IMG/VR virus record: IMGVR_UViG_3300047494_000058
Coordinates: 1-64,000 of that record
From: a virus
Strand: one strand, 5' to 3'
DNA length: 64,000 bases
Below the pieces are notes generated by a model, which saw only the letters and a list, made by a program, of their open reading frames with translations, was not told the DNA's origin and made no database searches. Each line of letters begins with the position of its first letter. Position 1 is the first letter of the stretch. This document shows positions 17,394-55,107 of the stretch, piece after piece. The position numbers were made by a program, and so were the translations under genes.

Positions 17394-18872
17394 ATGTCTA
17401 ATCCCGGACTTTCAGTCAGCGACGTCGTCGGCGTCAGCGTCTCGCTTTCCCCGACGCCCGCGCAGCTGCGCAGCTTTGGGTCGGCTCTCATCCTCGGCGA
17501 CTCGGACGTCATCGACACCCAGACGCGGTACCGCACTTACACCGGCATCACCGGCATCGGGGCCGACTTCGGCACCAACAGCCCGGAGTACGCGGCGGCG
17601 CTGGAGTTCTTCGGTCAGACCCCGCAGCCCTCGGTGTGCTATGTCGGGCGCTGGGCGCGCACCGCGACCCACGGCACCTATGTGGGCGCCACCCTGGGTA
17701 GCGCTGCACAGGTCATCAGCAACTTCAACGCCATCACCAACGGCGGCGTCAACATTACGGTAGACGGCACGCTGCACGCACTGGCCGCCATCTCGCTGGT
17801 CGGCGTGTCGAACCTCAACGCGGTGGCGTCGGCGCTGCAGACGGCGCTGGCCGGCGCGGCTACCGTCGTCTGGGACTCGAACAACAACCGGTTTGTCGTT
17901 AAGTCCACGACCAACGGCTCGGGCTCCTCGGTCAGCGCGGCGCAGGTCGGCACCGGCACCGACCTGTCGGTCATCATGGGCCTGAACTCCTCGGTGCTGG
18001 GCGGGTACTCGGTCAACGGAATAGCGGCCGAAACCCCGCTCGCCGCGGCCCAGACCCTGGCGGCGCTCACCAATGCCTGGTACGGGCTCACGTTCTCGGC
18101 CTCAGTCCAGCCGGCCGACGCCGACTACCAGGCGGTGTCCGCCTTCATCCAGGCTTCCTCGCCAGCCCGCGTGTTCGCGGTCACCACCCAGGAGGCTAAT
18201 GTCCTCACGACCGGCGTCAACACGGATATCGCATCGGTGCTGACGGCCAACCGTACGTTCGTGCAATACTCCTCGTCCAGCCCGGTGGCGGCAGCTGCGG
18301 CCCTGGGACTCGCGTTCAGTACCAACTTCAACGGCGCCAACACGCTGTACACCCTGATGTTCAAGCAGGAGTCGGGCGTCCTGCCCGAGACCCTGACCGA
18401 GGCACAGTCAACCGAACTCCAGGCCGCGTACGGTAACGTGTTCGTGAATTACAACAACGGCGTGGCGATCCTGCAGAACGGCACCATGTCGGACGGTACG
18501 TTCTTCGATGTGATCCACGGCACCGACTGGCTGCAGAACGCGATCCAAACCGCGATCTTCAACCTGCTGCTCACCAGCCGCAAGATCCCGCAGACCGACG
18601 CGGGCGTGAACCAGATCGTATCGGTCGTCACCAACGTACTGGATCAGGCCGTGACCAACGGCCTGCTGGCGCCGGGCACCTGGACCGCGGCACCGTTCGG
18701 TGCCATCGTCACCGGGCAGTATCTCACCGCCGGATACTACGTGTACGCCCCGCCCATCGCGACCCAGTCCCAGGCCGCCCGTGCGGCCCGGCAGGCCCCC
18801 GTCCTCACCATCGCGGCCAAGCTCGCAGGCGCGATTCAGAGTGCGAACGTCATCGTCAACGTCAATCAATAA
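17394..18872 (+). CDS. Tail sheath protein (DUF3383)
   Basis: 492 residues. The N-terminus (LSVSDVVGVSVSLSPTPAQLRSFGSALILGDS), the central ALTNAWYGLTFS segment, the IASVLTANRTFVQYSSSSP region and the C-terminal AYYVYAPP-like segment match DUF3383 proteins, the sheath subunits of many myoviruses. This gene is the main evidence for a contractile tail. The tube gene follows 16 nt downstream. Confidence 0.88.
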   Translation: MSNPGLSVSDVVGVSVSLSPTPAQLRSFGSALILGDSDVIDTQTRYRTYTGITGIGADFGTNSPEYAAALEFFGQTPQPSVCYVGRWARTATHGTYVGATLGSAAQVISNFNAITNGGVNITVDGTLHALAAISLVGVSNLNAVASALQTALAGAATVVWDSNNNRFVVKSTTNGSGSSVSAAQVGTGTDLSVIMGLNSSVLGGYSVNGIAAETPLAAAQTLAALTNAWYGLTFSASVQPADADYQAVSAFIQASSPARVFAVTTQEANVLTTGVNTDIASVLTANRTFVQYSSSSPVAAAAALGLAFSTNFNGANTLYTLMFKQESGVLPETLTEAQSTELQAAYGNVFVNYNNGVAILQNGTMSDGTFFDVIHGTDWLQNAIQTAIFNLLLTSRKIPQTDAGVNQIVSVVTNVLDQAVTNGLLAPGTWTAAPFGAIVTGQYLTAGYYVYAPPIATQSQAARAARQAPVLTIAAKLAGAIQSANVIVNVNQ

Positions 18873-35356: not shown

Positions 35357-35657
35357 TATCCTCTATATGGTACGGGTGATCTTTCGGCTTCAAACAGATG
35401 TGACATATCTTCGAACGGACGCGCTCCATGAAAACATGCTTGAGATCGCGCTGGAATTTCTTCTGTGCATTAACCAGGCACAGATAGTGGAACCTCTCGA
35501 ACGGGTGACCGATGGATACGCGACCCTGCAGCACCGGGTCCTTCCGCCGGCCCGGACGGCCACAGATGTGGCATACCGGACCGGTGGTAGCCACCCCCGA
35601 TCCTAAGGCGGAGGGCGACCCCTCCGCTTTGGCCGTCTTGGGCCTCGTCAGCCTCAC
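35334..35657 (-). CDS. Zinc-ribbon HNH-like small protein
   Basis: 107 residues with two CHIC motifs (VCHICGRPGRR near 30 and ICHICLKPKD near 87). This resembles recombination endonuclease VII-type or treble-clef zinc proteins, but a complete His-containing catalytic motif could not be assigned. Overlaps the helicase gene's 3' end by 4 nt. Zinc binding is likely; a nuclease role is speculative. Confidence 0.5.
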   Translation of the reverse strand: MRLTRPKTAKAEGSPSALGSGVATTGPVCHICGRPGRRKDPVLQGRVSIGHPFERFHYLCLVNAQKKFQRDLKHVFMERVRSKICHICLKPKDHPYHIEDSVNEQKM

Positions 35658-38314: not shown

Positions 38315-38610
38315 CAGGGCCCCAAGGTGTTGGCAATCAATGTGGCATAGCCAGCGATGTCGTGCCAGCTGTCATAATGGTATGGGTCGCCGTTCAAGAT
38401 GCGCGCGATCTTTACCGAAATTATCGAAAGTGCTTCGCGCATATGCGGCGGGATCGGACGCCACCCGGCATCGTCAACTTCACTCTGCGGGTGCCAGTTC
38501 GGCGTGTTCATCATCACGGCCAGGAGCGCCTGCGAGATCTCGGACTGCTCGATGAAGCTGCCGTAGGTCTTGCCACGCTCCGCCAGTGTGGCCTGAATGT
38601 TATCAGTCAT
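38314..38610 (-). CDS. DUF6378-type protein
   Basis: 98 residues. LAERGKTYGSFIEQSEISQALLAVM and SIISVKIARILNGDPYHYDSWHDIAGYATLI match DUF6378, a small phage family with a nucleotide-enzyme-like helical pattern of conserved Glu, Lys, His and Asp. It overlaps the DatZ-like gene by 8 nt, hinting at a shared role in nucleotide handling. Activity unknown. Confidence 0.7.
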   Translation of the reverse strand: MTDNIQATLAERGKTYGSFIEQSEISQALLAVMMNTPNWHPQSEVDDAGWRPIPPHMREALSIISVKIARILNGDPYHYDSWHDIAGYATLIANTLGP

Positions 38611-39181
38611 TGGCTGCTCCTCGCGTCACATCGTCCACCATGACAGCCCATACCTCGTCGGCCGGCAGGCACGATTTCAGGACCCCGGGAACCTTCCCCC
38701 ACTGATAGGAGCCCTGTTTGGCCGCGGCCCCGTATGCAGCCCGGAATTGGTCGCGCAGGGACACCATGACGTGCCGGCGGTCCAGGCCGCCGTTTTGGTA
38801 GGCGAACAACGCGGTTTCGGTAATGTCGGCCAGCTTTACCACGGCGTCGACTATGGTGCCCTTATGGCCACGACCGCCCCGGACCTCGATCACGTCGCGG
38901 GCGTTCTCCTCGATCAGCCGGTAGACGTCGGGAGCCACCGCCTTGGCCGTGGCCGGGATGTCGCCCGTCAGCACTTCATGCAGGTCGTGGGCAAGTGCCC
39001 AGCGCTCGATGGCGGCCATGTCCAGCGAGTTGTGGTGATCAACGCCGATCGCCTCCGCGATGGCGCAGGCGATGTGGTACACGCGGTACTGGTGTTCGGC
39101 CAGCGACTGTGGGCGCGTGAGCGCTACAATCGTCCAGCGCTTGACCTCGGTCGCGCGCAGTGCTAATTCAAGGTTGGGCAT
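38603..39181 (-). CDS. datZ: DatZ-like HD phosphohydrolase (dATPase candidate)
   Basis: 192 residues, AAGGA 9 nt before ATG. HD-domain residues: His30 in SLAEH, His65-Asp66 in LAHDLHEVLTGDIP, Asp119 in VVKLADITE; the fold pattern matches YfbR-like 5'-deoxynucleotidases. Z-genome phage DatZ belongs to this HD group and removes dATP (to dA and triphosphate), so that only 2-aminoadenine nucleotide is incorporated. Assignment as DatZ rather than a general YfbR dNMP nucleotidase is inference from the PurZ, MazZ and DpoZ genes 3-6 kb away. Confidence 0.72.
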   Translation of the reverse strand: MPNLELALRATEVKRWTIVALTRPQSLAEHQYRVYHIACAIAEAIGVDHHNSLDMAAIERWALAHDLHEVLTGDIPATAKAVAPDVYRLIEENARDVIEVRGGRGHKGTIVDAVVKLADITETALFAYQNGGLDRRHVMVSLRDQFRAAYGAAAKQGSYQWGKVPGVLKSCLPADEVWAVMVDDVTRGAAND

Positions 39182-39468
39182 CGGGTAGATCCTTCGGGGT
39201 CACGGTAGAGGAGACCGCTGCGCATATGATAGCAGCGGCCGAAAGCGACGAAATCGCGGTCCACGTCCTTCGTCAGCGGCGCGCATTCGTGCGGTATGAG
39301 CCCGGAGTCCGGGCATACGATAGCGGGCTTGTCGGCCAGCGCCTGGTCGGGGTCGTCGCTGCGCATCACGCCGGTAGCGTGCAGGAGTGCGAAGACGCCT
39401 GCCCCTATAAGGCCGCCCAGCGCCGGCAACGCGATCTTGGACTCCCTCATATTACTCCAGGTACTCAT
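39163..39468 (-). CDS. Membrane-anchored hypothetical protein
   Basis: 101 residues. One membrane segment (~13-31, ALPALGGLIGAGVFALLHATG) with an extracytoplasmic-like C-terminal domain containing four Cys (IVCPDS, ECAPL, RCYHM, RCPTLN). ATG 39468 overlaps the upstream stop by 4 nt; ATG at codon 7 is an alternative. Confidence 0.55.
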   Translation of the reverse strand: MSTWSNMRESKIALPALGGLIGAGVFALLHATGVMRSDDPDQALADKPAIVCPDSGLIPHECAPLTKDVDRDFVAFGRCYHMRSGLLYRDPEGSTRCPTLN

Positions 39469-39764
39469 AACAGCGTCACCTTGCGACCCAGGCGCTGCGA
39501 CAGGTCGGCCTCGTAGTCCTGCACCTCGCGCCTCATGGCGTCGCGCACGGCCCGGTGGTATTCGATCTCGGTGAACACGCCTTTTTCCATGAGCAGCCGG
39601 GCCAGCGCCGCGTCGTTCACCATCGCGGAATTGATTCCGACCCGCACATGCTTGGGGTCGGCTATGTCCTGGTCGTACTGCAGCAGCATCTTAACGCCGG
39701 TCTGCATCGCGTGGGCCAGCGCCATGTACTCCTGGCGCAGCGTGTCGATAATGTCTTCGTTCAT
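39465..39764 (-). CDS. Hypothetical protein
   Basis: 99 residues, highly helical and charged (MNEDIIDTLRQEYMALAHAMQTGVKMLLQYDQ). Overlaps neighbours by 4 nt at both ends. No family recognised. Confidence 0.55.
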   Translation of the reverse strand: MNEDIIDTLRQEYMALAHAMQTGVKMLLQYDQDIADPKHVRVGINSAMVNDAALARLLMEKGVFTEIEYHRAVRDAMRREVQDYEADLSQRLGRKVTLL

Positions 39765-39958
39765 TTCTTCTCCTCGGGTTCGGGGATGCCCAGATGTTCG
39801 CGGATTAGCCGGCGCAGCTTGTAGGCGCGGGTAAAGTTCGGGGCCTTTAGGGCCTGCTGCAACAGGTCCTGGGCCACTAGTAGCTTAGCGTGCACGCGGT
39901 CGCGGTCGGCGACCATGGCCGTGAACCGCTGGTCCATGACCTTAAGCTCGTTCATCAT
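39761..39958 (-). CDS. Hypothetical small protein
   Basis: 65 residues, one helix with leucine heptads (DRDRVHAKLLVAQDLLQQAL) and a charged acidic tail (PEPEEKK). Coupled to neighbours by 4-nt overlaps. Confidence 0.5.
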   Translation of the reverse strand: MMNELKVMDQRFTAMVADRDRVHAKLLVAQDLLQQALKAPNFTRAYKLRRLIREHLGIPEPEEKK

Positions 39959-40233
39959 GGCTTTGAATCCGGTTCGGAAGTAGCCGCAGGGCTAGATTGT
40001 GTCGGTTTGACGAAGTTGGGCAGCCCCACACTGCGAAGAATCTCGTTACAGGCGTCCAGCAATCGGGGGTGAAAATAATACAGCCCAGCCATCTTCGTCA
40101 GCGCCGCCTCCAGCGCAGCAACGCGGTCGCTTGCGGCGAACAGGGCATCCCTATAACCAGGATGGGGAAAGCACACCTTGTCGTTTACCGCTCGAATGAT
40201 GGGCACCAAATCGTCCGATGTTCTGTCATCCAT
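39955..40233 (-). CDS. Hypothetical protein
   Basis: 92 residues: N-terminal helical domain and a Ser/Pro-rich C-terminal tail. Contains DRVAALEAALTKMAGLYYF. Unknown function. Confidence 0.5.
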   Translation of the reverse strand: MDDRTSDDLVPIIRAVNDKVCFPHPGYRDALFAASDRVAALEAALTKMAGLYYFHPRLLDACNEILRSVGLPNFVKPTQSSPAATSEPDSKP

Positions 40234-40756
40234 GAGGCACCTCTGTCTGAGATGCTGTCACTTCGCTCATCAGGATCGGCGCGAGGCCGGTCCATTCCGC
40301 CGACACACAAACGTAGCGTTCGTCCGGCTCATCGTCGTAGGCTTCGTGTGTTTTCATGACTCGCTTGCTGTGCATGTGGCCGTGGATGTTCTTGGCATAC
40401 CGGTACATCTGGTTCTGGTGGATCGGTACGTGGGTCAACAGGCAACCGTTGTACTCGGCGGCTCCGTAAATCTTGCCGAAGTAGGTTTGATAAACCTCCA
40501 GCGGATAGTGATCGTGGTTGCCCAGCACGAGGCGCTTGTAGCCATTCAGCGAAGCCAGCACCTTGTGCCCGTCCTTGCCGAAGAACACGTCCCCTAGATG
40601 CCACACGGTGTCCCGCTTGGTAACAACCGCATTCCATCGGGCCACCAGTTCGGCGTCATGGGCTTCGATTGTGTCGAATGGCCGCGCCTCCTTCTCGAAC
40701 TCTATGACCCGCTTGTGCCCAAAATGGGTATCCGAGATTACGAATACGCGGCTCAT
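40226..40756 (-). CDS. Calcineurin-like metallophosphoesterase
   Basis: 176 residues from ATG 40756, overlapping the upstream gene. Motifs: SDTHFGH (Asp9, His11), LGDVFFG, LGNHDH, THVPIHQ and NIHGHMHS, a complete two-metal metallophosphoesterase set. Small phage members hydrolyse phosphodiesters or nucleotides. The substrate cannot be told from sequence; next to nucleotide-metabolism genes a nucleotide or nucleic acid target is plausible. Confidence 0.85.
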   Translation of the reverse strand: MSRVFVISDTHFGHKRVIEFEKEARPFDTIEAHDAELVARWNAVVTKRDTVWHLGDVFFGKDGHKVLASLNGYKRLVLGNHDHYPLEVYQTYFGKIYGAAEYNGCLLTHVPIHQNQMYRYAKNIHGHMHSKRVMKTHEAYDDEPDERYVCVSAEWTGLAPILMSEVTASQTEVPHG

Positions 40757-40935
40757 GCGGCTGGGTCTTTTATGGGCGGTGGGCGAATCTCTGATCGCGC
40801 CAATTCCAGCGCCTGGTCCCAAGGCATTTCGCAGCCGTCGTACAGTTCGCGCGCCCTTCGACCTATCGCCAAATCCTCAGCGGTGGGTCCGCACAACCTC
40901 GTCGGGCTTTGCCTATACCATTCATCGAAGTTCAC
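40753..40935 (-). CDS. Hypothetical small protein
   Basis: 60 residues (MNFDEWYRQSPTRLCG...). Acidic-amphipathic helix near the middle. Overlaps the phosphoesterase start by 4 nt. Unknown. Confidence 0.5.
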   Translation of the reverse strand: MNFDEWYRQSPTRLCGPTAEDLAIGRRARELYDGCEMPWDQALELARSEIRPPPIKDPAA

Positions 40936-40963
40936 TACTCACCTCCCTTTGCAGATGCGGAGT

Positions 40964-41251
40964 TCACCGCGAACTCTCCAGATTACTCGCTGCAGTGAAC
41001 CCCAATTCATACGCGGCCTGCCTTATAGCCTCCTCGTCCAACTCGGCCTTAATGGCCCGCGACAGCCAGGAGCCCCACATCCGGTTGAGGTTCCCGTCCC
41101 GGTACTGACCGATGAACTCACCCGCGGTGTCGTAGGTGCCGCCCTCGGCGGGCCAGGAACCGGCCATGACCCGGCGCACCCAGCCCTCGAAGATCGGACG
41201 CTCCCTGTCCATCAGGGCGACGCGCTGCTCCATCGACTTGAACTCTTTCAT
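40964..41251 (-). CDS. Hypothetical protein
   Basis: 95 residues from ATG 41251; the frame is open to 41293 but ATG 41251 is preceded by an ATAGAGGATAG ribosome site. Charged, helical, with a Trp-rich central part (FEGWVRRVMAGSWPAEGG). Unknown. Confidence 0.6.
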   Translation of the reverse strand: MKEFKSMEQRVALMDRERPIFEGWVRRVMAGSWPAEGGTYDTAGEFIGQYRDGNLNRMWGSWLSRAIKAELDEEAIRQAAYELGFTAASNLESSR

Positions 41252-41262
41252 ATTGCTATCCT

Positions 41263-41523
41263 CTATTTGATAGACGCAAAACCCGCCGCCCACAACCGGT
41301 TTGACTCGTTACCGTCCGGATAAGGGTTCGTGCGCCCATCGTTCTGAATCGCATCCCGTTGTCCGCGCTCGTAGGCGCCCTGCACTCGATAATGCTCCAG
41401 TTCGGCGGCATCGGCGACAAGTAACCGCTCAACATCTCGCAACTCGACGTAATCGCCCATACCGCGGTCTTCGCGCATACCAACCACGGTCCAGTGTAGC
41501 ACACGGAGGTTTCTCGGCGTCAT
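41263..41523 (-). CDS. Hypothetical protein
   Basis: 86 residues from ATG 41523, which shares one base with the upstream TGA. N-terminal short hydrophobic strand then charged helix (ELEHYRVQGAYERGQRDAIQ). The open frame extends much further 5' but through the secreted protein gene. Unknown. Confidence 0.55.
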   Translation of the reverse strand: MTPRNLRVLHWTVVGMREDRGMGDYVELRDVERLLVADAAELEHYRVQGAYERGQRDAIQNDGRTNPYPDGNESNRLWAAGFASIK

Positions 41524-41885
41524 CACCGCACCACCACCGTGATCTGCGTCGGGACACCCGGCGTCTGGAACGGGATCGCCGCGCAGGCCGTCGCGCTCTG
41601 TGCCCCCTCCTGGCCATTTGCAACCGCAGTGACTGCAAAACACTGCGTCGTGCCGGGCGTGAGGCCCGCGCTGATCAGCACCCCAGTGTTGGCCAGGGCC
41701 GACTGCACCTTGACCAGGGTCGAGCCCTGTGCCGCCTGGTACACGTTGTAGGTCAGCGTCGCCGTGATCGTTGAGCCGTCGCTGTTGAGCGTCGGCGCCG
41801 TCCAGGACAACGATGCAGTAGGCGATGCCCAGGCTGCTGCAGCGATCACACAGCCAATCAACATACTGATAATCCGTTTCATCAT
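41523..41885 (-). CDS. Secreted fibronectin III-like protein
   Basis: 120 residues. Signal peptide (MKRIISMLIGCVIAAAAWA) followed by one FnIII-like beta domain (TASLSWTAPTLNSDGSTI...LTYNVYQA...TPGTTQCFAVTAV). Early-region location of an exported FnIII protein is unusual. The MM start permits two in-frame initiation codons. Function unknown; could act in the periplasm or on the cell surface. Confidence 0.62.
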   Translation of the reverse strand: MMKRIISMLIGCVIAAAAWASPTASLSWTAPTLNSDGSTITATLTYNVYQAAQGSTLVKVQSALANTGVLISAGLTPGTTQCFAVTAVANGQEGAQSATACAAIPFQTPGVPTQITVVVR

Positions 41886-41905
41886 TCATCTCCATGTGTA
41901 AGAAA

Positions 41906-42466
41906 CTATAATGCTCCGTCGGGCCCCAGCGGCGGACATTCGATGCAGTCGCAGCCCGGCGCCTCGCAGTGGTGCGGGTTATCGTGCTGGGTCCAGGAGT
42001 GCCCACATGTGGGGCACGCGGCAGGGCGCGGCAGGTTCGTGATCTCCGGCCCCTCATTGTGCGGCGTCGGTGTCGGGTTCAAGGGGTCGACGCGCCGCGG
42101 CAGGGCCGGATTCTCAGGGTCGTTGTCCTGCTCGCCGGTCGGCAGTGGCGGTATGCTTGTGCTCATGGGTCGCTCCTCGATGTGTTGTGCCAGGCCGGTG
42201 ACCTCGTCGAACACCCAGCGCCTGGCCTCGTTTATTTCCATCTTCTCGGCGATCGCCTTCGCGATGTTGATGTGGTTCATGCTGCAGTAGTCGAGCAGCA
42301 GGATGAAGACGTCGGCCGCCTCGTGCGGGCTCGACGGGTCAGCGATAAGCTCGCCCACCTCCTGGTATAGTTTGAGGAACACGCCGGCCGACGTGCGCTT
42401 GGGGAACTGCCGGCTGGCCCAGGCCGTCACGGCGCGCTGGACGTCGGAGAAGCTGTCCCAGTTCAC
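41906..42466 (-). CDS. mazZ: MazZ-like MazG pyrophosphohydrolase with C-terminal zinc region
   Basis: 186 residues from GTG 42466, which overlaps the purZ stop as GTGA; the upstream frame lies inside purZ and is a shadow. The MazG core shows YQEVGELIADPSSPHEAADVFI: Glu36, Glu39, Glu49 and Asp52, the metal-binding E-x2-E...E-x2-D signature, followed by a MEINEARRW segment. Residues ~105-180 are extra: Pro-rich, then six Cys and three His (CPTCGHSW...CEAPGCDCIEC), probably a zinc-binding tail. In Z-genome phages MazZ converts dGTP (and dATP) to dGMP, the substrate of PurZ. Linkage to purZ supports that role. Confidence 0.78.
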   Translation of the reverse strand: MNWDSFSDVQRAVTAWASRQFPKRTSAGVFLKLYQEVGELIADPSSPHEAADVFILLLDYCSMNHINIAKAIAEKMEINEARRWVFDEVTGLAQHIEERPMSTSIPPLPTGEQDNDPENPALPRRVDPLNPTPTPHNEGPEITNLPRPAACPTCGHSWTQHDNPHHCEAPGCDCIECPPLGPDGAL

Positions 42467-43608
42467 TTGAACCACCTGCTGAAGCTGCCCTGGCTGAGCC
42501 ACTGCGCGGTGAACACGTCGTCCACATAGATCGCGTCCGCGGCTGTGGGCCCGAACGTGAGGATGCGCGGCCGGACGCCGGTCCAACTCTCAATCTCGAC
42601 CAGCCACTTGGACAGCTTCTCGCCGATGTTCTGCCCGTACTCGGGCTGCGGCGCCACATAGTCGGCAAACGTCAGTACCAGGTGGTTGGGGCTGCAGATC
42701 CAGGCGGCCTCGCGGGCCTGCTGAGCGCTGAACGTGAACACGCGCCGCGGCAGCCGAGTTACGGTCGTGAGTTCGGGCTCGCGGCCGAGGTCGGCCTGCC
42801 AGTCAAGTTCTGTCTGGTCGTCGTAGCATGCGCCGGACGTTCCGACGAGGCTTCCGTCGGCCGCGTCGTAGCGATTCGCTACTCTGATGGGGAATGTGCG
42901 CATCGTGCCCCAGACGGTGGCCCCCCGTGCGGTGTCGAACGGTATCCTGCAGTCGGCCAGCAGCTGCGTCACGCTGACGTCGCGCGAGGTCGTGTGCGGC
43001 CAGAACTTGGTGTGGCTGCCCAGCGAGAACCCCTGGGCGCCCTCGATCAGGATGTGCCGGGCGGTCGCGACCTCGGAGTTGTACAACTGCTCGGACACGC
43101 AGAACTGCACGTCAATCATCGCCAGCGCCTTCTGGATGTCGCGATACAGGGCCATCGGGGCGTCGCGGGCCAGCGGCGACTTGTACGGGTCGCGCCAGAT
43201 CTTGTCGATGGTCGCGGCCGAGGTGCCCTTCATCGTGGAGCCGATGCGCGCCAGCACCTTCTCGGCCTCGGCGTGCCGCGGCTGCAGGATGCAGGCGTTG
43301 GGGTGAATCACGATACGCTTACCGGCCAGGTAGCTGCGGGCCGCCTTGGCCTCGGCCAGCAGCGAGTCCAGGTTCACCACCGACCCGGGGCCGATCAGCT
43401 GCGTGCACACGCTGTGGCACACCAGGCTGTTGGCCAGCATTGTGTGCACGAACTTGTGGCCCGCGGCGTTGATCGCCGTGTGGCCGGCGTTCGGGCCCCA
43501 AGCCGTCATCGCCACGTCGGGCTGCAGCTGTTCGCCCAGGAGGTGTGCCAGCGCGCCCTTACCGGTGCTGCCGTACTGCATATCGACCACTATATCAAGC
43601 TTTGTCAT
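42463..43608 (-). CDS. purZ: PurZ, 2-aminoadenylosuccinate (dSMP) synthetase candidate
   Basis: 381 residues, PurA fold. N-terminal QYGSTGKG (residues 11-18) is the PurA P-loop in which E. coli PurA has W-G-D-E-G-K-G-K. The Asp that acts as catalytic base (Asp13 in E. coli) is replaced by Ser14. This Asp to Ser change is the published signature of phage PurZ, which uses dGMP and Asp instead of IMP. GPNAGHT carries the conserved His, and ILIEGAQGFSLGSH...PHTTSRDVSV is conserved in the family. The product feeds host PurB and then kinases to give dZTP. Length is shorter than PurA (~430), as in phage PurZ. Confidence 0.85.
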   Translation of the reverse strand: MTKLDIVVDMQYGSTGKGALAHLLGEQLQPDVAMTAWGPNAGHTAINAAGHKFVHTMLANSLVCHSVCTQLIGPGSVVNLDSLLAEAKAARSYLAGKRIVIHPNACILQPRHAEAEKVLARIGSTMKGTSAATIDKIWRDPYKSPLARDAPMALYRDIQKALAMIDVQFCVSEQLYNSEVATARHILIEGAQGFSLGSHTKFWPHTTSRDVSVTQLLADCRIPFDTARGATVWGTMRTFPIRVANRYDAADGSLVGTSGACYDDQTELDWQADLGREPELTTVTRLPRRVFTFSAQQAREAAWICSPNHLVLTFADYVAPQPEYGQNIGEKLSKWLVEIESWTGVRPRILTFGPTAADAIYVDDVFTAQWLSQGSFSRWFK

Positions 43609-45446
43609 TTTGCCGTCGCCTCGAACCAGTTCTTACCAGTCTTGCCTTTGCAGAGTATGGGAACCCTGAACTTCAGGGGTGTCTTTTCGCCATCGAACCG
43701 TTGCAACAGGTCGAGGATGTCGACCTGCTTGACCTGCTTGCCTAGCGAGATGCACAGTTCGTCGTGCACCGACAGCATCAGGCGCGAGTCGGTCCCGTGC
43801 AGCATCTCGGCGACCTCGATCATCTTGTATTTGATGATGTCGGCGCAGGCGCCCTGGAACAGGAGCCCTGCGGCCTTGTGCGCGCCCTGACCTCGCGGGA
43901 AGTGCAGTCGGCGCTTCAAGGGCGTAAGGATGTAGCCGCGGGCCTTGGCCACGGACTCGGCGCCGTTGGTCATGCCCTTGATGCCAGGGATCGTCGCGTG
44001 GTATTTCTTGAAGATCGCCTCCGCGGCCTCGCCGGCCCGGAAGTAGCCGCGCTCGTCCACCCAGTAAGGCAGGCCCATCTCGCGCGCCAGCTTCCCCTGG
44101 CCCATACCAAACACCATCGCAAGGTTAATCTGCTTGGCGTTAGCTCCGCCGGTCTTCTGGTCGCGGTTACGCGGCACGCCCACCAGCTTCGACACCAGGC
44201 CGTGGAAGTCGACCATGGGGTCGGCCGCGTAGGCGTCGAGCAGTACGGGCTCCTTCACGTAGTGCGCAAAGCAGCGAAAGTCGATCTGGTCGTAGTCCGC
44301 GCTCAACCAGCTGTTGCCGACGTCGGGCAGGAACAGCGACCGCACTATGCGGGCAAGCTTCACGTCCCTCGCGTGGATCTGTTGCAGTGCGGGCTCGGTC
44401 ACGCTCATGCGGCCGGTGGTCGTGCCGGAATCCGCCTCGGTCTTGGTCTGGTTGATGTTGCAGTGGATGTAACCCTTGTAGCTGTCGCCCAGCACGTACC
44501 GGTTGACGAACACGTCGCGGGCCTTGATCATGCCGCGGATATTCGCGATCAGCCCGGCCTCGGGGAACTTCATATTGTTGAGAGCATGCGTCCGGACCGA
44601 CGCGTTGCCGCCGTCGGTGGGCTCCAGCGGCGTGCCGTCCCGCGCCCGCCACTGGCCCTGGTCGTCCTTCACGGGCGCCACGATCTTGAGCACCTGCGGC
44701 CCTGAGTTCACGTTGACCTTGGAGCCCACCAGGCGGTCGAGTTCGCGCTGGTCGGCCTGGACCTGGCGGTCGAGCTCCTTGGAGGCGATCTCGGCGCGCT
44801 CCAGGTCCACGCGTACGCCGCGCTTCTCCAGGTCCAGCACGACGCCCAGCAGCTGCCGCTCGACACCGCAGATGTAGCGCAGGTCCTGCTTCTCGATCTC
44901 GCGCTCCTGGGCCAGCCAGACGCGCAGCGCTATCGCGGCGTCCGGGCAGGCGTACGTCGCTACCATCTCCTCGGGCGCGTACTGCAGGTTCAGGATCTGC
45001 GCATCCCGCGTGGCCTTGCCACCGTGGGCCTGCGCCAGGGCGCCCCATATCTCGACGCTCTTTTTACCGGCGTCGTACTTGCCACCCAGCGAATCCAGGC
45101 TGTACTCGTGCCGGTGTTCGTCGATCAGCGCCTCGCGAATCATGGTGCAGTCGATCTTGGCCGGGTCGAGCGGACAGCCGGCCTCGCGCAGGAAGTGCGC
45201 GTCGAACTTGATGTTATGGTTGACGACCTTGCGCGCCCGGCGCAACTGGTCAAAAGCCCAGCGGCGCTGGTTCTCGATGCGGATGTCGACGTAGATGCTG
45301 TCGACCTTGGTGCCGCCAGCAAACCAGGCGAAGGCCAGGCCGAACGGCTCGTCCTTCCAGAACTTCAGGCCCGTGGTCTCGGCATCACACGCGATCACGT
45401 GATGGCTCGACAGATCAGGGAGAAGCTTGAGTCGCTGTTGCGTCAC
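43605..45446 (-). CDS. dpoZ: Family A DNA polymerase, DpoZ candidate
   Basis: 613 residues, GTG start. The 3'-5' exonuclease domain has Asp21/Glu23 (DAETTGL), Asp82 (NIKFDAHF) and Tyr165/Asp169 (YACPD). The polymerase domain has motif A SADYDQIDFR (Asp384), motif B ANAKQINLAMVFGMG (Lys438) and motif C SVHDELCIS (Asp562). In motif B the positions equivalent to E. coli Arg754, Phe762 and Tyr766 appear to be Gly, Leu (442) and Phe (446). The 5' nuclease domain is absent. In Z-genome phages DpoZ is a PolA-family enzyme that prefers dZTP over dATP; here it overlaps purZ by 4 nt, so the DpoZ role is inferred from linkage. Confidence 0.82.
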   Translation of the reverse strand: MTQQRLKLLPDLSSHHVIACDAETTGLKFWKDEPFGLAFAWFAGGTKVDSIYVDIRIENQRRWAFDQLRRARKVVNHNIKFDAHFLREAGCPLDPAKIDCTMIREALIDEHRHEYSLDSLGGKYDAGKKSVEIWGALAQAHGGKATRDAQILNLQYAPEEMVATYACPDAAIALRVWLAQEREIEKQDLRYICGVERQLLGVVLDLEKRGVRVDLERAEIASKELDRQVQADQRELDRLVGSKVNVNSGPQVLKIVAPVKDDQGQWRARDGTPLEPTDGGNASVRTHALNNMKFPEAGLIANIRGMIKARDVFVNRYVLGDSYKGYIHCNINQTKTEADSGTTTGRMSVTEPALQQIHARDVKLARIVRSLFLPDVGNSWLSADYDQIDFRCFAHYVKEPVLLDAYAADPMVDFHGLVSKLVGVPRNRDQKTGGANAKQINLAMVFGMGQGKLAREMGLPYWVDERGYFRAGEAAEAIFKKYHATIPGIKGMTNGAESVAKARGYILTPLKRRLHFPRGQGAHKAAGLLFQGACADIIKYKMIEVAEMLHGTDSRLMLSVHDELCISLGKQVKQVDILDLLQRFDGEKTPLKFRVPILCKGKTGKNWFEATAK

Positions 45447-45592: not shown

Positions 45593-45700
45593 TCACGCGG
45601 CGTCTACCAGCAGCAGTGTCACCGTAATGATCGCAATAGTAGCCATCAACCAGATCGCATGTTCCCAGGTGAACTGCGGCCGGCGGGGCTTCGGTATCAT
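45593..45700 (-). CDS. 35-residue single-span membrane protein
   Basis: Starts at ATG 45700 overlapping the helicase TGA (ATGA). Basic/Pro N-terminus (MIPKPRRPQFTWEH) and one membrane span (WLMATIAIITVTLLLV). Second micro-membrane gene of the same length next to the polymerase gene. Function unknown. Confidence 0.6.
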   Translation of the reverse strand: MIPKPRRPQFTWEHAIWLMATIAIITVTLLLVDAA

Positions 45701-47097
45701 GCCGCCCTCGGGAACAGGTATCCGTTCGTGTCGTGCACCAGGAACAGGTTCGTCTTAGCGCGGGTGACCCCAACGTACATTACGCGATGCTCGGCGTCCT
45801 GGTCCTTGTAGAACGACTCAATGGTCGACTTAGTCATTGACGACACCACGACCACCGAGTCCGCCTCCATGCCCTTGGCGCTGTGGATCGTACGCAGGTC
45901 GACGCGCCGGGCGTCCAAGCTCACGCGCTGCAGGTACGAGATCTCGGCGTGATTGGTGTTGATGACGTCGGTGGCCTTCTCGCCGTCGAGCATCTCGGCC
46001 ACGGCGCCGTAGCCCACGGTGTCGGCCAGCTGCAGGCCATACTGCGTGAGCCCGGAGCGGATCACGCGGATGTCGACCGCCTCGAACCACTTCTCCTGGC
46101 GCAGCCGGTGGAACGCCTGCCCGGAGCGCTTCTGCAGCGGCGAGTTGCCGACATCGGTTACGAACGGCACGAGTTCCTCGGTGAGCAGCCGCACGTACTT
46201 GGCGCGCGAATATTTGTTCCTGAACAGGATCATCATGGAGTTGCCGCGGTACAGGTCGCGCAGCATGGGCTTGTCGAGCGCGACGCCGGACGCGACGCGC
46301 CCCTCCGCCGGCCGGGGCCTGTACTCCTTGTGCTGGCGGGCCGACATCTTGGACGCGATCGCCTGAGCCAGCGAGTGCACGGCCGAGGGCACGCGGTACG
46401 ACTGCGATAGCACCTTGACCTCGGAGTCATGCTTCTCGGCGAAGCGTGCCATGCCGTGCGGGTCGGCGCCGGTCCACTGGAAGATCGCCTGGTCGTCGTC
46501 GCCGGCCACGGTCACGTCGTCGCACACTTCGAGCATGCGCTCGACCACGGCCCAGTGCAGCGGCGTCAGGTCCTGCGCCTCGTCGATCACCAGCGAGCCC
46601 AGGCGCGCGACGAACCCGCGCTCGACGGTCATGGTAAGCATGTCTGTGTAATCCACAAATCCAAACGCATCCTTCCATTCTCGATAGGCGTGTACGAAAC
46701 GCCTAAAATCTGTACGGCTGCCGACTGCACCATAAGCCTCAAAAGCGGCGTCATCAGTGATTCCGACGGTGCGAGCGAAACTGTTAACGTGAAAATAGGT
46801 CCGGAGTTCACTCGGCTTCTCCTCATCGGCCTCCAGGATGAACCCGGTGCGCTTGCAGAACGACTCCAGGTTGTGGTCGGACACGACCTGCGCCCGCGAC
46901 AGACCCAGCGCCCGGAAACACAAGCTGTGGATCGTTGACGCCTTCCAGTCGATGCCGGTTTTCTTGAGTTCCTGATACTGCGCCGACGACGTCGCCGCCT
47001 GCGCCGCGGTGCGGGTATGCGAGCAAAACGTCACCGTGCCGTGGCGCTCCAGCGAGCGCTGTACAAGATAGGTCGTTTTTCCTGTGCCCGGCATCAT
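45697..47097 (-). CDS. SF1 DNA helicase, N-terminus disrupted at Walker A
   Basis: 466 residues if started at ATG 47097. Walker A PGTGKTT at residues 3-9, SHTRTAA, motif II VIDEAQDLT, GDDDQAIFQWTGAD, LSQSYRVP, and C-terminal TIHSAKGMEADSVVV and YVGVTRAK. These define an SF1 helicase (UvrD/Dda-like). The first strand before Walker A is missing from this reading. In another frame immediately upstream, GTG 47135 (AAGAGG 7 nt upstream) gives GKIPNHTVFGPP then TGA. Removing 8 nt (ATGATGCC) would fuse this to GTGKTT in frame. The gene is either interrupted, or restarts at the ATGATG created there. Confidence 0.75.
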   Translation of the reverse strand: MMPGTGKTTYLVQRSLERHGTVTFCSHTRTAAQAATSSAQYQELKKTGIDWKASTIHSLCFRALGLSRAQVVSDHNLESFCKRTGFILEADEEKPSELRTYFHVNSFARTVGITDDAAFEAYGAVGSRTDFRRFVHAYREWKDAFGFVDYTDMLTMTVERGFVARLGSLVIDEAQDLTPLHWAVVERMLEVCDDVTVAGDDDQAIFQWTGADPHGMARFAEKHDSEVKVLSQSYRVPSAVHSLAQAIASKMSARQHKEYRPRPAEGRVASGVALDKPMLRDLYRGNSMMILFRNKYSRAKYVRLLTEELVPFVTDVGNSPLQKRSGQAFHRLRQEKWFEAVDIRVIRSGLTQYGLQLADTVGYGAVAEMLDGEKATDVINTNHAEISYLQRVSLDARRVDLRTIHSAKGMEADSVVVVSSMTKSTIESFYKDQDAEHRVMYVGVTRAKTNLFLVHDTNGYLFPRAA

Positions 47098-47135
47098 GGC
47101 GGGCCGAATACTGTGTGGTTGGGTATCTTACCCAC
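47092..47135 (-). other. Helicase 5' remnant with apparent 8-nt insertion
   Basis: Minus strand, GTG 47135 followed by codons for GKIPNHTVFGPP and TGA overlapping ATGATG at 47097-47092. The sequence around Walker A fits a helicase start such as FGPPGTGKTT if the 8 nt ATGATGCC are removed. It lies directly after the HNH gene stop (47128-47130). Confidence 0.6.
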
Positions 47136-47950: not shown

Positions 47951-48745
47951 CTAGTAGTCCTTGCCTGGCTCCAACGCGTCGTCCGGCGGCGTGTCGGTGC
48001 TGGTATCGGCCACCACGTTACGCTCGCCCCGCTTGACCGACTCGTACAGCGCCTCGCCCTTCTTGTACACCTCGACCGGCGCGAACCCCAGCGTCTGCAC
48101 GTTGAGGTTCCAGAAATCGTCGCCCTTGTCGTTACTGTCCTCGACTGCGAACACGTTGTAGATCCTGGTGAAGCGGTCGTTGCCGTTCATCCGGATCAGC
48201 GCGTTCCAGGCCCGCGACACCTTGAGTTTGGAGCGCGACATGGAGACCACGATCTCCTCGGTCTCGCCGGTCGCGTCGTCCAGGAGCAGGCAGAACTGCT
48301 GGGCAGTCTCCTGCGCGGTGAACTGCTCGGGGTCGTCCTCCTGATTAATGCGGATCTGCGCCTCTTCCAGGGTCGGGAACGCGCCCCGGAACCCGCCACC
48401 GGCCTTGCGGTCCTTCCATACCAGGTACTCCTTGCGGAAGAACACCGGGCATACCACCGCATTGTGTCCGTACAGCTTACGGGTTACCGAGTTGAAGAGC
48501 ATGCCCTGCTCGGCGCCCTCGATGTACGCGGGGTCGCTCTTCTTGATCGCGGGCGACAGCGCCTGGATGACTTCGAGCCTGGGGATGACCAGGTCCTCCA
48601 TCCCGACGTTCTCGCTGCCGCGGTTCATACCCTGCTTGATGTAGTCGGGCACGGCCACTGTGCCGGCCTGCTCTTTCTTCGCCACCTGTGTGGCGGCCTT
48701 GGGTACCACTGCCTTGTTCGCTGTCTTGCTTGCTGCTGATGCCAT
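47951..48745 (-). CDS. Conserved phage protein, putative ssDNA-binding/recombination accessory
   Basis: 264 residues. The N-terminus is Ala/Lys rich. The segment GMEDLVIPRLEVIQALSPAI, then GMLFNSVTRKLYGHNAVVCPVFFRKEYLVWKDRKAGGG, is a pattern shared by a widespread family of phage proteins encoded near replication genes. A ssDNA-binding or annealing role has been suggested for such proteins but is not shown by sequence. Charged C-terminal tail (TPPDDALEPGKDY) fits ssDNA-binding proteins with acidic tails. Confidence 0.6.
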   Translation of the reverse strand: MASAASKTANKAVVPKAATQVAKKEQAGTVAVPDYIKQGMNRGSENVGMEDLVIPRLEVIQALSPAIKKSDPAYIEGAEQGMLFNSVTRKLYGHNAVVCPVFFRKEYLVWKDRKAGGGFRGAFPTLEEAQIRINQEDDPEQFTAQETAQQFCLLLDDATGETEEIVVSMSRSKLKVSRAWNALIRMNGNDRFTRIYNVFAVEDSNDKGDDFWNLNVQTLGFAPVEVYKKGEALYESVKRGERNVVADTSTDTPPDDALEPGKDY

Positions 48746-48778: not shown

Positions 48779-49444
48779 CTACGACGTTTTGATGGCGGCT
48801 CGCGTGAACGGCCGTGTTTCTACGATCTCGGACGGGACGTCCTTTCTGCCCTCCTCTGGTTTGAGCTTGTTCTGCGCACGGATGAAAGCGGCCAGCGTCT
48901 GCGCGTTTACGCTGTCCTGGATCATGTCCTCCAGCAGGTTGTCAATCAGCCATTGCTTGAGGCCATCCTTATCCAGCACGGTGACCTGAATGTCGTCAGA
49001 CAGATAGCAGGTGCCGACGTCGGCCACCGTGATCTTTTCGATGCCCTTCTCGTCGAACAGGTCCGGCAGGTGCGAGAACCGGATGCGGTCGAGGAGCGCC
49101 GACTGCGCCGACGTGATCGCCTTCAGCTGGTTGCCCAACTGCTTGATGCGCGCCATCGACTTGACCAACCCCTCGACGTTCCCCTCCTCGCGCAGCTTGT
49201 CGACATGCATCCCGGCGCTTACGATGATCTCCCCGAGGCTCGCGAGCGGAGTGGCTATATCAGCCTTGGGTTTCGTCGCAGGCGGCGCCGCGGGCTTCCT
49301 CTTGGCTCCCGCCAGTGCCGACGCGGCCCGGTTTGGGGTCGCCGGCATGCCGATCTTCTCCTTGTACTGCTCGTACGCCGACTTCGGCCGGTCCTCGTGG
49401 GTCTTGATCGCGCCGACCCCTGACGCCTTCTTCGCTGCCGCCAT
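48779..49444 (-). CDS. Hypothetical replication-region protein
   Basis: 221 residues from ATG 49444 with GAGGA upstream; longer open frame is shadow. N-terminal Lys/Ala/Pro-rich segment, then helices (VDKLREEGNVEGLVKSMARIKQLGNQLKAITSAQ) and a beta/helix C-terminal part. It is the partner upstream of the ssDNA-binding-like gene; conserved pairs of this kind occur in phages but the role is unknown. Confidence 0.6.
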   Translation of the reverse strand: MAAAKKASGVGAIKTHEDRPKSAYEQYKEKIGMPATPNRAASALAGAKRKPAAPPATKPKADIATPLASLGEIIVSAGMHVDKLREEGNVEGLVKSMARIKQLGNQLKAITSAQSALLDRIRFSHLPDLFDEKGIEKITVADVGTCYLSDDIQVTVLDKDGLKQWLIDNLLEDMIQDSVNAQTLAAFIRAQNKLKPEEGRKDVPSEIVETRPFTRAAIKTS

Positions 49445-49457
49445 GTTCGCTATTCCT

Positions 49458-49793
49458 CTATGCTGCTGCTGTTTGTGACAAATCAATCGAGTAAGGTATG
49501 TACCGGTAGTGCATGGCGTCCCAGGCCAGGAACTGGTGCCTGGCCCCATGTTCCATCAGGATCATGCTGACCACACACATCTTGAGCGGCTTGCCCGTCG
49601 GTATCAGGTAATCCACCATGGGCACGTAGTTCTTCAGCTGCTTGCGCAGGCTGTGGACGACGTCCCGGTTCCAGTGGTCGTCGCCACCGGCACCTGTTGC
49701 AAAATTCTGGGCACGCAAGCTCACGACGTCACCGAACGCTTCCGCTGGTGTATAGTCGAAGCTGTTCGTGTCCATTATGTAGACCGTAGCCAT
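49458..49793 (-). CDS. Hypothetical protein
   Basis: 111 residues from ATG 49793 (upstream codons are shadow). Contains DDHWNRDVVHSLRKQLKNYVPMVDYLIPTGKPLKMCVVSMILMEHG. No recognised family. A TAAAAT-type -10 element (49820 region) precedes it with a weak -35 element. Confidence 0.55.
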   Translation of the reverse strand: MATVYIMDTNSFDYTPAEAFGDVVSLRAQNFATGAGGDDHWNRDVVHSLRKQLKNYVPMVDYLIPTGKPLKMCVVSMILMEHGARHQFLAWDAMHYRYIPYSIDLSQTAAA

Positions 49794-50625: not shown

Positions 50626-50859
50626 CTATACGATCACTTCCCGGCCTTCCTGCATCTGCTGCTTTCTTTTGCAAGTCGCAACGATTACTGCCACTCTATC
50701 AGGCCCCAGGCCCACTTCCCGCGCTATGCTAGCATAAGTGCAACCTGCGGCGTGGTCTGCGATGATTTTAGCGTTTCGGGCCGTATATGCATCAGGGTCG
50801 GTTAGTGCTAGTGACCACTGTTTGACCTTCCTGCGTCTCTTTCCATTAATTATAATCAT
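50626..50859 (-). CDS. HTH-like small protein
   Basis: 77 residues; the segment ADHAAGCTYASIAREVGLGPDRVAVIVATC resembles a helix-turn-helix with a basic N-terminus (GKRRRKVKQW). ATG 50859 overlaps the SNF2-like gene stop by 4 nt. Likely DNA-binding. Confidence 0.55.
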   Translation of the reverse strand: MIIINGKRRRKVKQWSLALTDPDAYTARNAKIIADHAAGCTYASIAREVGLGPDRVAVIVATCKRKQQMQEGREVIV

Positions 50860-52484
50860 ACCATGATCTCCTTTCCTGCCTGCATCTGCTGCGCTACATA
50901 TGTTGCAAGGTCGAGCTTAACCTCATGCGCTGCCACCAGCGTCTCGTCCACTGTCTTGTTCGCCACGAAGTCAATATACGTGACCGGATGGCGGAGGCCG
51001 GCGCGGTGAGCGCGGTCCTCGGACTGCGTGCGGATCACGTAGCTGTTGGAGTGCGAGTAGTAAATCACGGTCTCGGCCGCGGTCAGCGTCAGGCCCACGT
51101 GCGCCAGCTGCGTGGTCGACACGAAGTACCTGTAGACGCCATTCTGGAACCCGTGGATCAGCGCCTGCCGCTGGTCGGCGTCGAGGTCCGAGGTGAACAC
51201 GGCAGCCTTGCCCTCGGGCAGCACGTCGGTTATCAGCCTAAGTTCAGGCACCCACTCGCAAAAGATGATGACCGGCCCCTGCAGAACTTCAAGTTCGGTG
51301 ATCAGCGCCTGCAGGCGCGTGTTGTCCTTCGCCGGGATGCGCGCCACCGGCACGCCGTCCTCATTCGGCAGGAACCCGCCCAGCAGCTGGCGCAGGCGCA
51401 GCATCTTCACCAATACGTTCTTGAGTTCGAACGGCTCCAGCGCGTTCTTCTTCAGCGCGGCGTACTGGTCACGGTGCGCCTTCGAGAGTTCGATGTAGCG
51501 CCGCGTGTAAATCTTCTCTGGTAGGTCCAAGCACTCCTTCTTGGTGATGGCGAAGGTGTACGGCTGGATGAACCCCATAAACTCTTCGACGTTGTCGTAG
51601 CCGATGATGTTCTTCTTCTTGAACCCGCCCATGATGGCGTAGCGGTTGCGGAACGCGTAGAAGTCGCCGATGCCGATGATGTTGGGGTCCAGGAACTCGT
51701 ACTGGGAGTACAGGTCGATCAGCGACTTGGTAACCGGCGTACCGGTCAGGCACAGCCGGACCTTGGCCTGGCGCCCGATCTGCTGCAGGATCTGCGTCCG
51801 CACTGTGCTGTGCGTCTTGATGGAGTGCGACTCGTCGATGACCATCATGAACTTATGGTATGGAGCCCAGGCCATGAAGGCGGCGCCGGCCCTGCCCTGG
51901 GAGAATGACTCCACGCCCGCGATGATGAAGCAGATCTCGCCGTCGCGGATGTTACTCACGCCCTTGAACTTGGAGTCGGCGCGGTGTACGACGAACGGCA
52001 GCGGGCAGTGGGTTCTGAGTTCGTCCTCCCAGGTGCGGCACACCGACATCGGGCAGACGATGACGACGTACTGTACGCGCTGGTGCAGGTAGTGCGCGCA
52101 GCCGACATCGATTGCCACCTTGGTCTTGGCCGTGCCCTGCTCCATCGACAGGAAGAACGCGTCGCGGGCGTACGCCAGCTGCATGGCCCGCTTCTGGTGT
52201 TCGTAGGGCTCGGGGCCGGCGTGCCTGTACCAGGCCGGCCAGGCGCGCAACTCCTGCGTGCCGCTGGTGGCCCGGTGCGCAGCCTCCAACGCCTCGGGCT
52301 GCCACTCCCATTTGTCGCTCTTCAATGTATCGAGCATGACCTGGCAGTTCAGCCGCGTCGCCGGTACCTGCCAGACCCCGGCCTTCTTCATGAACCGGCG
52401 CATGGGCAGCCGCATCACCGGGCCGATGAACTGCGGCGGCGCGTTAATGAAGAACTGATTCTTGTCAGCGACGTAGCGGATCAT
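50856..52484 (-). CDS. SNF2-like SF2 helicase/ATPase
   Basis: 542 residues. Motif I SMEQGTAKTKVA (Walker A), motif Ia VVIVCPMSV, motif II VIDESHSIK (DESH), motif III LTGTPVTKS, motif IV VIIFCEWVPEL, motif V VSTTQLAHVGLTLTAA and motif VI RTQSEDRAHRAG. An SNF2/SF2 ATPase without extra domains, typical of phage replication regions. It probably translocates on dsDNA; role in replication or recombination inferred. Confidence 0.85.
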   Translation of the reverse strand: MIRYVADKNQFFINAPPQFIGPVMRLPMRRFMKKAGVWQVPATRLNCQVMLDTLKSDKWEWQPEALEAAHRATSGTQELRAWPAWYRHAGPEPYEHQKRAMQLAYARDAFFLSMEQGTAKTKVAIDVGCAHYLHQRVQYVVIVCPMSVCRTWEDELRTHCPLPFVVHRADSKFKGVSNIRDGEICFIIAGVESFSQGRAGAAFMAWAPYHKFMMVIDESHSIKTHSTVRTQILQQIGRQAKVRLCLTGTPVTKSLIDLYSQYEFLDPNIIGIGDFYAFRNRYAIMGGFKKKNIIGYDNVEEFMGFIQPYTFAITKKECLDLPEKIYTRRYIELSKAHRDQYAALKKNALEPFELKNVLVKMLRLRQLLGGFLPNEDGVPVARIPAKDNTRLQALITELEVLQGPVIIFCEWVPELRLITDVLPEGKAAVFTSDLDADQRQALIHGFQNGVYRYFVSTTQLAHVGLTLTAAETVIYYSHSNSYVIRTQSEDRAHRAGLRHPVTYIDFVANKTVDETLVAAHEVKLDLATYVAQQMQAGKEIMV

Positions 52485-53393: not shown

Positions 53394-53581
53394 CAAAACG
53401 CCACCCCTACAGTTAGTTGTACCCCTAATCCGTCCTCGTCCTTGGACACCACCGCGCTGACGAGTAACTGCGTCTCGCAGTGGTCGCAGTCGGTCTCGAA
53501 GCTGACGCCCTCGGGCACGTCGCCGTCGTCCGTGATGCCGCACGGCCTGTCGCACACCGGGCACATAAGATCGTAGCCCAT
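53393..53581 (-). CDS. Zinc-ribbon protein
   Basis: 62 residues from ATG 53581, which overlaps the primase stop by one base. MCPVCDRPCG...CDHCETQ gives a C-x2-C...C-x2-C zinc ribbon. Directly downstream of the primase gene, so it may assist it. Function unknown. Confidence 0.6.
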   Translation of the reverse strand: MGYDLMCPVCDRPCGITDDGDVPEGVSFETDCDHCETQLLVSAVVSKDEDGLGVQLTVGVAF

Positions 53582-55107
53582 CAATAATCCGGCCGGAACG
53601 TCGCGGCCACCTCTTCCTCGGGCGGTGAGTACGGCATCATCCAGACGTTGGTGTAGGTCTTGCCCAGCAGCGCCCTGACCGAGATCGCGGACAGCAGGTG
53701 CAGCTGCGTCGTGATCTCGCTCGACGTCATGCGGATGTTGTACTGAGCGCGCAGCCGCTGCTCCAGGTGCAGCAGACGGAACATGACCATACGCTTGTCC
53801 TCGTAGGTCACGGTCGCCGGCCCGGTGTCGCGGACGTACAGCTTGCGCAGGTTCTCGTCCTGCTCCTGCTTCTGCGTCTGGGCGTCGCGCAAGATGTGCG
53901 ACAGCGCCGACAGGAACTGCTCGTTGAGCGCGATGCCCTCGGTGTCGCCGATTATCGACAGTTTGTCGGTAAGGAGCGACTGCACGAAGATCATCCAGTC
54001 GTCGGCCTTGTACACCGGAAGCAGCTGGCGCGTGAGGTCCAGGACGCGCTCGCGGAACTCCAGCGAGCTTATCAACGTGCGGGTCTTCATCGCGATCTCC
54101 TGCCCGTAGATCGTCACCACCCAGGTGGGCGGGTCGGTCGCGATCTTGAGCAGCTTCTCGACCGGCGGCATGTTCTGGTAGTCGGTGCCCATGCGGACGC
54201 CGAACTTGAGGAGCTTACACGCCTCCTTGTTGCACAGGGACAGGCACGGCTCGTCCTTGCACTTGTAGGCGTAATCGGTGCGGTTCACGGAGCCGCGGAT
54301 CTTGCGGATCTCCGCGTCGTCGAGCGGCTTCGCGAACGCGGCCTGGTTGAACAGCTCCATGCGCGACTTCCAGTCGTCGGGATAGATCCGCTTGAGCCAG
54401 ATGGACGCCTGGAACAGCGACAGGTTACGGTGCCCCTCGCCGCGATGCTCGTCATGGATCTTGACGATGCACGGCGGCGCCTGGCTGAGGTCGTAGAGTG
54501 TGGTGCCGGCGGCCGGGCCCTGGTCGACTGCCGCGGCCCGCTTTTCGGCCTCCGTGAGAAAATGTTCGAGGCTGGTGGGCATCCCGCCTATAATAGCGTA
54601 GCGCTCGGTCACGCCGGCCGCGTTGAAGTACGGCAGGTTGATCCAGGACCCCAGGCCGCCGGCCACGATCCGGTCCTGCTTGGGGAACACCTCGGCGGTC
54701 GGGTACCCCATCGTGGTCGCCCAGCCCTTGAGGACCTGCCGCGCGAACTCGACGCCCAGCGGCCGGGGAAAGAACGCGTAGCAGTGAGCGCCTCCGCTCT
54801 TGGAGCGGCAGACTATGAGCCCGACGTTGAGTTTGTCGGCCTTGGGCGCCACCTTGGCGGGGTCAGCGTCGTAGGCGTTGGGCCCGTGCACGTCGATGTC
54901 GATCACGCCCCAGGTGCACAGGCCGTCGTCGCGGATCGGCACGACCCCGGTCCCGAACTTCCCGTTCAGGTGACTCTTGAAATACCTGAACTCCGGGGCG
55001 TCGCGGACCGTGGACGTGCGACCATCCTTCGGGTCCCAGCGTCCGCGCGACGCGGTCGAGCACTCGAACACAGCCTGGAACCTGCGGACCTGGCTATCGT
55101 CGACCAC
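53581..55107 (-). CDS. Archaeo-eukaryotic primase (PrimPol-type)
   Basis: 508 residues. Motif I WGVIDIDVHGPN (Asp70, Asp72), motif II CRSKSGGAHCYAF (Ser102-His108) and a later FPKQDRIVAGGLGSWINLPYF segment are hallmarks of AEP/PrimPol primases. A helical C-terminal domain contains C-rich CKDEPCLSLCNKEACK, possibly a zinc site. This is the replication primase of the phage; the Z-genome cyanophage S-2L also uses a PrimPol, which makes the pairing with PurZ notable. Confidence 0.85.
   Translation of the reverse strand: MVDDSQVRRFQAVFECSTASRGRWDPKDGRTSTVRDAPEFRYFKSHLNGKFGTGVVPIRDDGLCTWGVIDIDVHGPNAYDADPAKVAPKADKLNVGLIVCRSKSGGAHCYAFFPRPLGVEFARQVLKGWATTMGYPTAEVFPKQDRIVAGGLGSWINLPYFNAAGVTERYAIIGGMPTSLEHFLTEAEKRAAAVDQGPAAGTTLYDLSQAPPCIVKIHDEHRGEGHRNLSLFQASIWLKRIYPDDWKSRMELFNQAAFAKPLDDAEIRKIRGSVNRTDYAYKCKDEPCLSLCNKEACKLLKFGVRMGTDYQNMPPVEKLLKIATDPPTWVVTIYGQEIAMKTRTLISSLEFRERVLDLTRQLLPVYKADDWMIFVQSLLTDKLSIIGDTEGIALNEQFLSALSHILRDAQTQKQEQDENLRKLYVRDTGPATVTYEDKRMVMFRLLHLEQRLRAQYNIRMTSSEITTQLHLLSAISVRALLGKTYTNVWMMPYSPPEEEVAATFRPDY

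Follow-up and report, generated by a model that had tools for sequence, protein, structure and literature searches.

A complete, apparently intact 2-aminoadenine (Z) enzyme set in a predicted myovirus of mosaic make-up

A complete and apparently intact enzyme set for the 2-aminoadenine (Z) genome is encoded in the window, the 64,000-nt stretch of viral DNA analysed here, which comprises positions 1 to 64,000 of IMG/VR record IMGVR_UViG_3300047494_000058. The set very probably represents a complete Z-genome pathway of the type formed by PurZ, DatZ, MazZ-1 and a phiVC8-like DpoZ, harbored by a contractile-tailed phage. Although the set itself is known, its pairing with a contractile virion whose closest relatives lack it suggests that swapping between unrelated phages has taken place more than once.

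The four Z genes and the features discussed together with them are collected in Table 1. The preliminary description had reported a complete-looking set of four co-oriented genes within 7 kb, accompanied by an AEP primase and belonging to a myovirus; all four open reading frames were found on the minus strand at the positions it gave, with no internal stop in any of them, and the assignments to PurZ, a MazZ-like MazG protein, a DpoZ-like family A polymerase and a DatZ-like HD phosphohydrolase are upheld by curated models, solved structures, active-site residues and synteny. The genes dpoZ and purZ overlap in the motif ATGA, and purZ and mazZ in GTGA, so that translational coupling of dpoZ, purZ and mazZ is probable. 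The start of mazZ was taken as GTG, while a mechanical ORF finder begins the gene at an upstream TTG. datZ is not adjacent to mazZ: it follows downstream on the same strand after a gap of about 2.7 kb that holds roughly seven small ORFs; despite this gap the order of the Z cluster, with mazZ between purZ and datZ, is kept. A PdeM-like (phrog_547) phosphoesterase gene is situated in the same interval at 40226-40822. Scans of the 64,000-nt window for tRNAs and Rfam families came back empty.

Table 1. Coordinates (positions in the window) and supporting matches of the Z genes, the replication block and the virion genes
Feature	Position	Strand	Remarks
Major capsid protein	13609..14694	+	phrog_264; 60-64% to Magia and IFTN9
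Tail sheath (DUF3383 / phrog_205)	17394..18872	+	E 8e-120; 46-51% to Magia and IFTN9
Baseplate hub	22925-23932	+	phrog_196 / phrog_6 baseplate matches
Baseplate wedge	25018-26190	+	phrog_196 / phrog_6 baseplate matches
DatZ, HD-domain dATP triphosphohydrolase (predicted)	38603..39181	-	192 aa; phrog_7076; S-2L DatZ (6zpa) best by sequence and by predicted fold
MazZ (MazZ-1 type), predicted (d)GTP pyrophosphohydrolase	41906..42466	-	186 aa; GTG start; PF04447; 7ody
PurZ, predicted succino-amino-deoxyadenylate synthase	42463..43608	-	381 aa; NF038379; phiVC8 and S-2L PurZ best in PDB
DpoZ, phiVC8-like family A DNA polymerase with 3'-5' exonuclease domain	43605..45446	-	613 aa; GTG start; NF038380; 7pbk
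UvrD-like helicase	45697..47097	-	upstream of dpoZ; 31-33% to same-place gene in Z-siphophages
Pam3 gp34-like protein (PF23977)	47951..48745	-	36-48% identity, same order, in most Z-phages compared
Pam3 gp33-like protein (PF23984)	48779..49549	-	block member
SF2 (SNF2-related) helicase	50856..52484	-	block member
AEP-type primase (AEP-TOTE)	53581..55107	-	PF22548; phrog_21866 primase; homologue in same place in PMBT28, S6a and PSA28

Gene identity, intactness, residues, synteny and mosaic make-up were established directly. For the residues, alignments with 9-13 Z-phage homologues were used to map each protein onto the sites named in earlier structural studies (PMC8342488, PMC8065100, PMC8599892). 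PurZ scores 314 bits against the NCBIfam model NF038379 (cutoff 300) and falls below the cutoff in all PurA models, and its closest PDB entry is phiVC8 PurZ (E 8e-60). The catalytic Asp13 of PurA is replaced by Ser14, which is invariant across 14 aligned sequences; T281 is kept, and an Asp occupies the position of S-2L Q308, which is variable within the family. A reading as PurA is thus disfavoured by the curated cutoffs, by the Ser in place of the catalytic Asp and by synteny. A PurZ0-type (Wayne-like) system was likewise rejected: the PurZ0 rows are separated at 100/100 in the tree, and the companions found here are DatZ and MazZ, not DutZ and DmtZ.

The polymerase reaches 700 bits against NF038380, which is 200 bits above the cutoff of 500, and stays below the cutoff in all Pol I models; its best PDB match is 7pbk (E 9e-114), an entry named 'DNA polymerase I' that we take to be phiVC8 DpoZ. 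It keeps R426, L442, F446 and G527 with a shorter insertion 3, and the signature of L455, F459, G548 and the helix-O insertion was recovered together with the Tyr-to-Phe change of DpoZ, so that cutoffs, residues and synteny all disfavour an ordinary Pol I. For MazZ, no NCBIfam match was obtained; the protein matches PF04447, and its nearest solved structure is S-2L MazZ 7ody (E 2e-12). It retains E36, E39, E49, D52, I55, D59 and R82, and comparison with S-2L MazZ revealed that the conserved metal ligands, Arg83 and the guanine-site residues I56 and D60 are all kept; residues and synteny disfavour a house-cleaning MazG. The protein possesses a Cys-rich C-terminal tail and is without a DUF5664 domain.

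The overall identity of DatZ to its reference relatives is only 22-27%. Its best PDB match by sequence (6zpa) has an E value of 5e-11, and it fails the YfbR model at 34 bits against a cutoff of 122, while also matching the YfbR-like Pfam family. The checked metal and phosphate residues are kept together with W16 and I18, the latter being the residue that shuts out the 2-amino group; the S-2L DatZ residues W20, I22, Q29, A32 and G74 have their counterparts, and P79 is Thr. By themselves these residues cannot tell DatZ and YfbR-type nucleotidases apart. An AlphaFold2 model built on an alignment of 21 sequences (mean pLDDT 84) retrieved S-2L DatZ best (E 5.6e-7) and YfbR next (2e-4), and DatZ rather than a YfbR nucleotidase is favoured from model scores, predicted fold and synteny.

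Characterised homologues are the source for each enzymatic step proposed here and for the expected Z in the virion DNA. MazZ would convert (d)GTP to dGMP, which PurZ would join to aspartate to give dSMP with ATP or dATP as the energy donor. The host PurB and host kinases, steps taken from the published pathway, would carry dSMP to dZTP; a search of this phage for its own PurB or kinases for these steps found none. DatZ would destroy dATP, and DpoZ would preferentially pair Z with T. In a separate observation, Streptomyces phage Hiyaa, which is of the PurZ0 type, has a gene for a PurB-like adenylosuccinate lyase (locus L020, 14480-15853) at a distance of about 4.4 kb from its purZ, a candidate for a phage-borne version of the step otherwise left to the host.

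The Z genes form part of a longer replication block, in which the order SF2 helicase, small genes, UvrD helicase, DpoZ, PurZ, MazZ and DatZ is common to phages SH-Ab 15497, PMBT28, S6a, PSA28 and Barton at protein identities of about 25-49%. The AEP primase was matched in PMBT28, S6a and PSA28, the compared stretches of SH-Ab 15497 and Barton cutting the primase gene. An S-2L-like PrimPol reading of this primase is not supported, the homologous enzyme being the usual companion in the PMBT28-type block. The block is colinear with those of the siphophages SH-Ab 15497 (Acinetobacter), PMBT28 (Salmonella) and S6a (Klebsiella), from which the window differs in its contractile virion, in the distance of datZ, in a MazZ without their N-terminal DUF5664 domain, in the lack of an SSB gene between dpoZ and purZ, and in an HNH endonuclease gene (47128-47631) between the Pam3 gp34-like gene and the UvrD helicase, a place where the compared Z-siphophages have none. 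The Cys-rich tail of MazZ resembles those of PMBT28, S6a and Kokobel2. The Z cluster of cyanophage S-2L contains datZ, mazZ-1 and purZ as in the window and supplies the nearest solved structures of MazZ and DatZ; S-2L has no DpoZ and replicates by PrimPol (PMC8065100), whereas the window encodes DpoZ and a different AEP primase. Two phrog_1967 UvrD-like helicases are present in the window, at 35654-37117 and 45697-47097, of which only the second is placed as in the Z-siphophages.

The other half of the phage traces to a different phage group. From its tail sheath and baseplate hub and wedge genes it is a predicted myovirus, an assignment the sequence supports; a protease gene lies on the plus strand with the sheath, baseplate and capsid genes, and the whole record of 72,224 bases contains terminase, portal and head genes beyond the window, named by homology. 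Burkholderia phage Magia and Bordetella phage vB_BaM-IFTN9, temperate-type myophages with an integrase and RecT, have 18 of 24 tested structural genes in common with this phage in the same order, and its TerL is 69-71% identical to theirs. When 25 replication-side genes of the window were sought in these two phages, none was detected; conversely, the compared stretch of SH-Ab 15497 has replication genes and no structural ones in common with the window. The phage is a clean mosaic of a Z-siphophage-type replication block and an unrelated contractile virion of the Magia/IFTN9 type.

Such a composition could arise artificially if a contig from a Z-siphophage had been fused with one from a Magia-like myophage during assembly, and it is true that the halves trace to phage groups with no genes in common and that the record, an IMG/VR contig, lacks end repeats. 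GC content nevertheless stays even across the window (58-69%) and does not step where the halves meet, a pairing of this kind also occurs in a cultured isolate, Burkholderia phage Bm1, and in four other contigs, and tailed phages are commonly mosaic in this way, which together make a chimera very unlikely. Reversion of the Z genes to ordinary roles, as PurA, 5'-deoxynucleotidase, house-cleaning MazG and normal Pol I in a phage with adenine in its DNA, is equally improbable: all four superfamilies have ordinary members and DatZ retains its YfbR-like Pfam match, but PurZ and DpoZ lie below every PurA and Pol I cutoff and bear the Ser and Phe replacements, DatZ misses the YfbR cutoff with a predicted fold closer to DatZ, and all four co-kept specialised genes would need to revert.

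A pathway that works while replacing A by Z only partially or conditionally, as an acquired module not fully matched to virion or host, is unlikely though deserving of some weight. The type of virion derives from phages that lack Z genes, host steps are required and the level of replacement is unreadable from sequence; against this, DatZ and DpoZ are the pair by which other Z-phages exclude A almost completely, and both look intact here. The complete Z pathway stays the preferred reading of the quartet.

The preliminary description had further regarded the phage as extending the Z system beyond siphophages and podophages. The remark is fair with respect to the 2021 survey, in which the Z cluster was confined to these two groups (PMC8342488), and to the description of Z-DNA phages in general (PMC8342488, PMC8599892), but the window is not the first Z set in a myovirus, since GenBank already contains the quartet of Bm1, apparently unremarked. 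Bm1 is a cultured isolate with a contractile tail seen by TEM (PMC12003559), and its datZ, a 111-aa mazZ, purZ and the DNA polymerase (dpoZ) stand side by side (locus L002, 33816-37748). A text search of the Bm1 paper for Z-pathway terms returned no mention of the quartet (PMC12003559), the main text of a 2026 Z-phage survey names neither Burkholderia nor Bm1, and no paper reporting a Z set in a myovirus was found in a literature search largely of papers outside subscription. Bm1 resembles the window in combining a contractile tail with dpoZ, purZ, mazZ and datZ, yet their structural genes are barely related (sheath identity 22%), and PurZ and DpoZ of Bm1 fall in the phiVC8-like clade while those of the window fall outside it. 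Megablast for close relatives of Bm1 returned only Bm1 itself. These comparisons support the window as a second, independent myovirus lineage with the Z quartet. As a control, the window's record and Bm1 both gave a DUF3383/phrog_205 sheath match, against 0 of the 15 other Z-phages in the phage collection.

A wider survey of IMG/VR by an alignment-based scan gave 375 PurZ relatives, of which the best 80 were kept, a scan with a single PurZ sequence having given only 3 loci. Among these best 80 loci, DatZ accompanies PurZ in 76, MazZ in 71 and DpoZ in 70, which indicates that the Z genes travel together. Four of the 80 contigs (L031, L034, L081 and L092) carry the same sheath family and are candidates for further Z-myoviruses; three contain the full quartet, and in L031 the contig breaks off just short of PurZ. 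Searching the 80 contigs for a PF04984 sheath gave no match, and thus only the DUF3383/phrog_205 sheath marks myoviruses in this set. Six MAGs with a bacterial binning also have PurZ relatives on their contigs (L113-L118).

In the PurZ tree of 65 rows, whose bootstrap is not fully settled, the six myovirus rows need six label changes, at least four of them forced by well-supported branches, and the DpoZ tree agrees, with five myovirus rows, five changes and at least four forced. The count of transfers is approximate. Many contigs are fragmentary and a single sheath family turned up, so that a contig with no sheath match is not equivalent to a phage with a non-contractile tail. Both trees join the window to L024, its nearest relative by PurZ, whose contig (record G005) yielded no sheath match and no structural gene in common with the window. 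Since the PurZ sequences of the six myoviruses form no single group, the Z module has probably moved between morphotypes repeatedly; a safe minimum is two independent myovirus lineages, those of Bm1 and of the window.

We lean, with some reserve, towards the Z replication block being a mobile module independent of virion type, which contractile-tailed phages would have acquired several times and which here accompanies a kind of virion that is otherwise seen in temperate phages. That two or more unrelated myovirus lineages carry the whole set, one of them represented by a cultured isolate (Bm1), suggests that Z chemistry is independent of virion type. Magia and IFTN9, which have the same virion type without the Z genes, offer a natural comparison for how packaging machinery handles Z-DNA.
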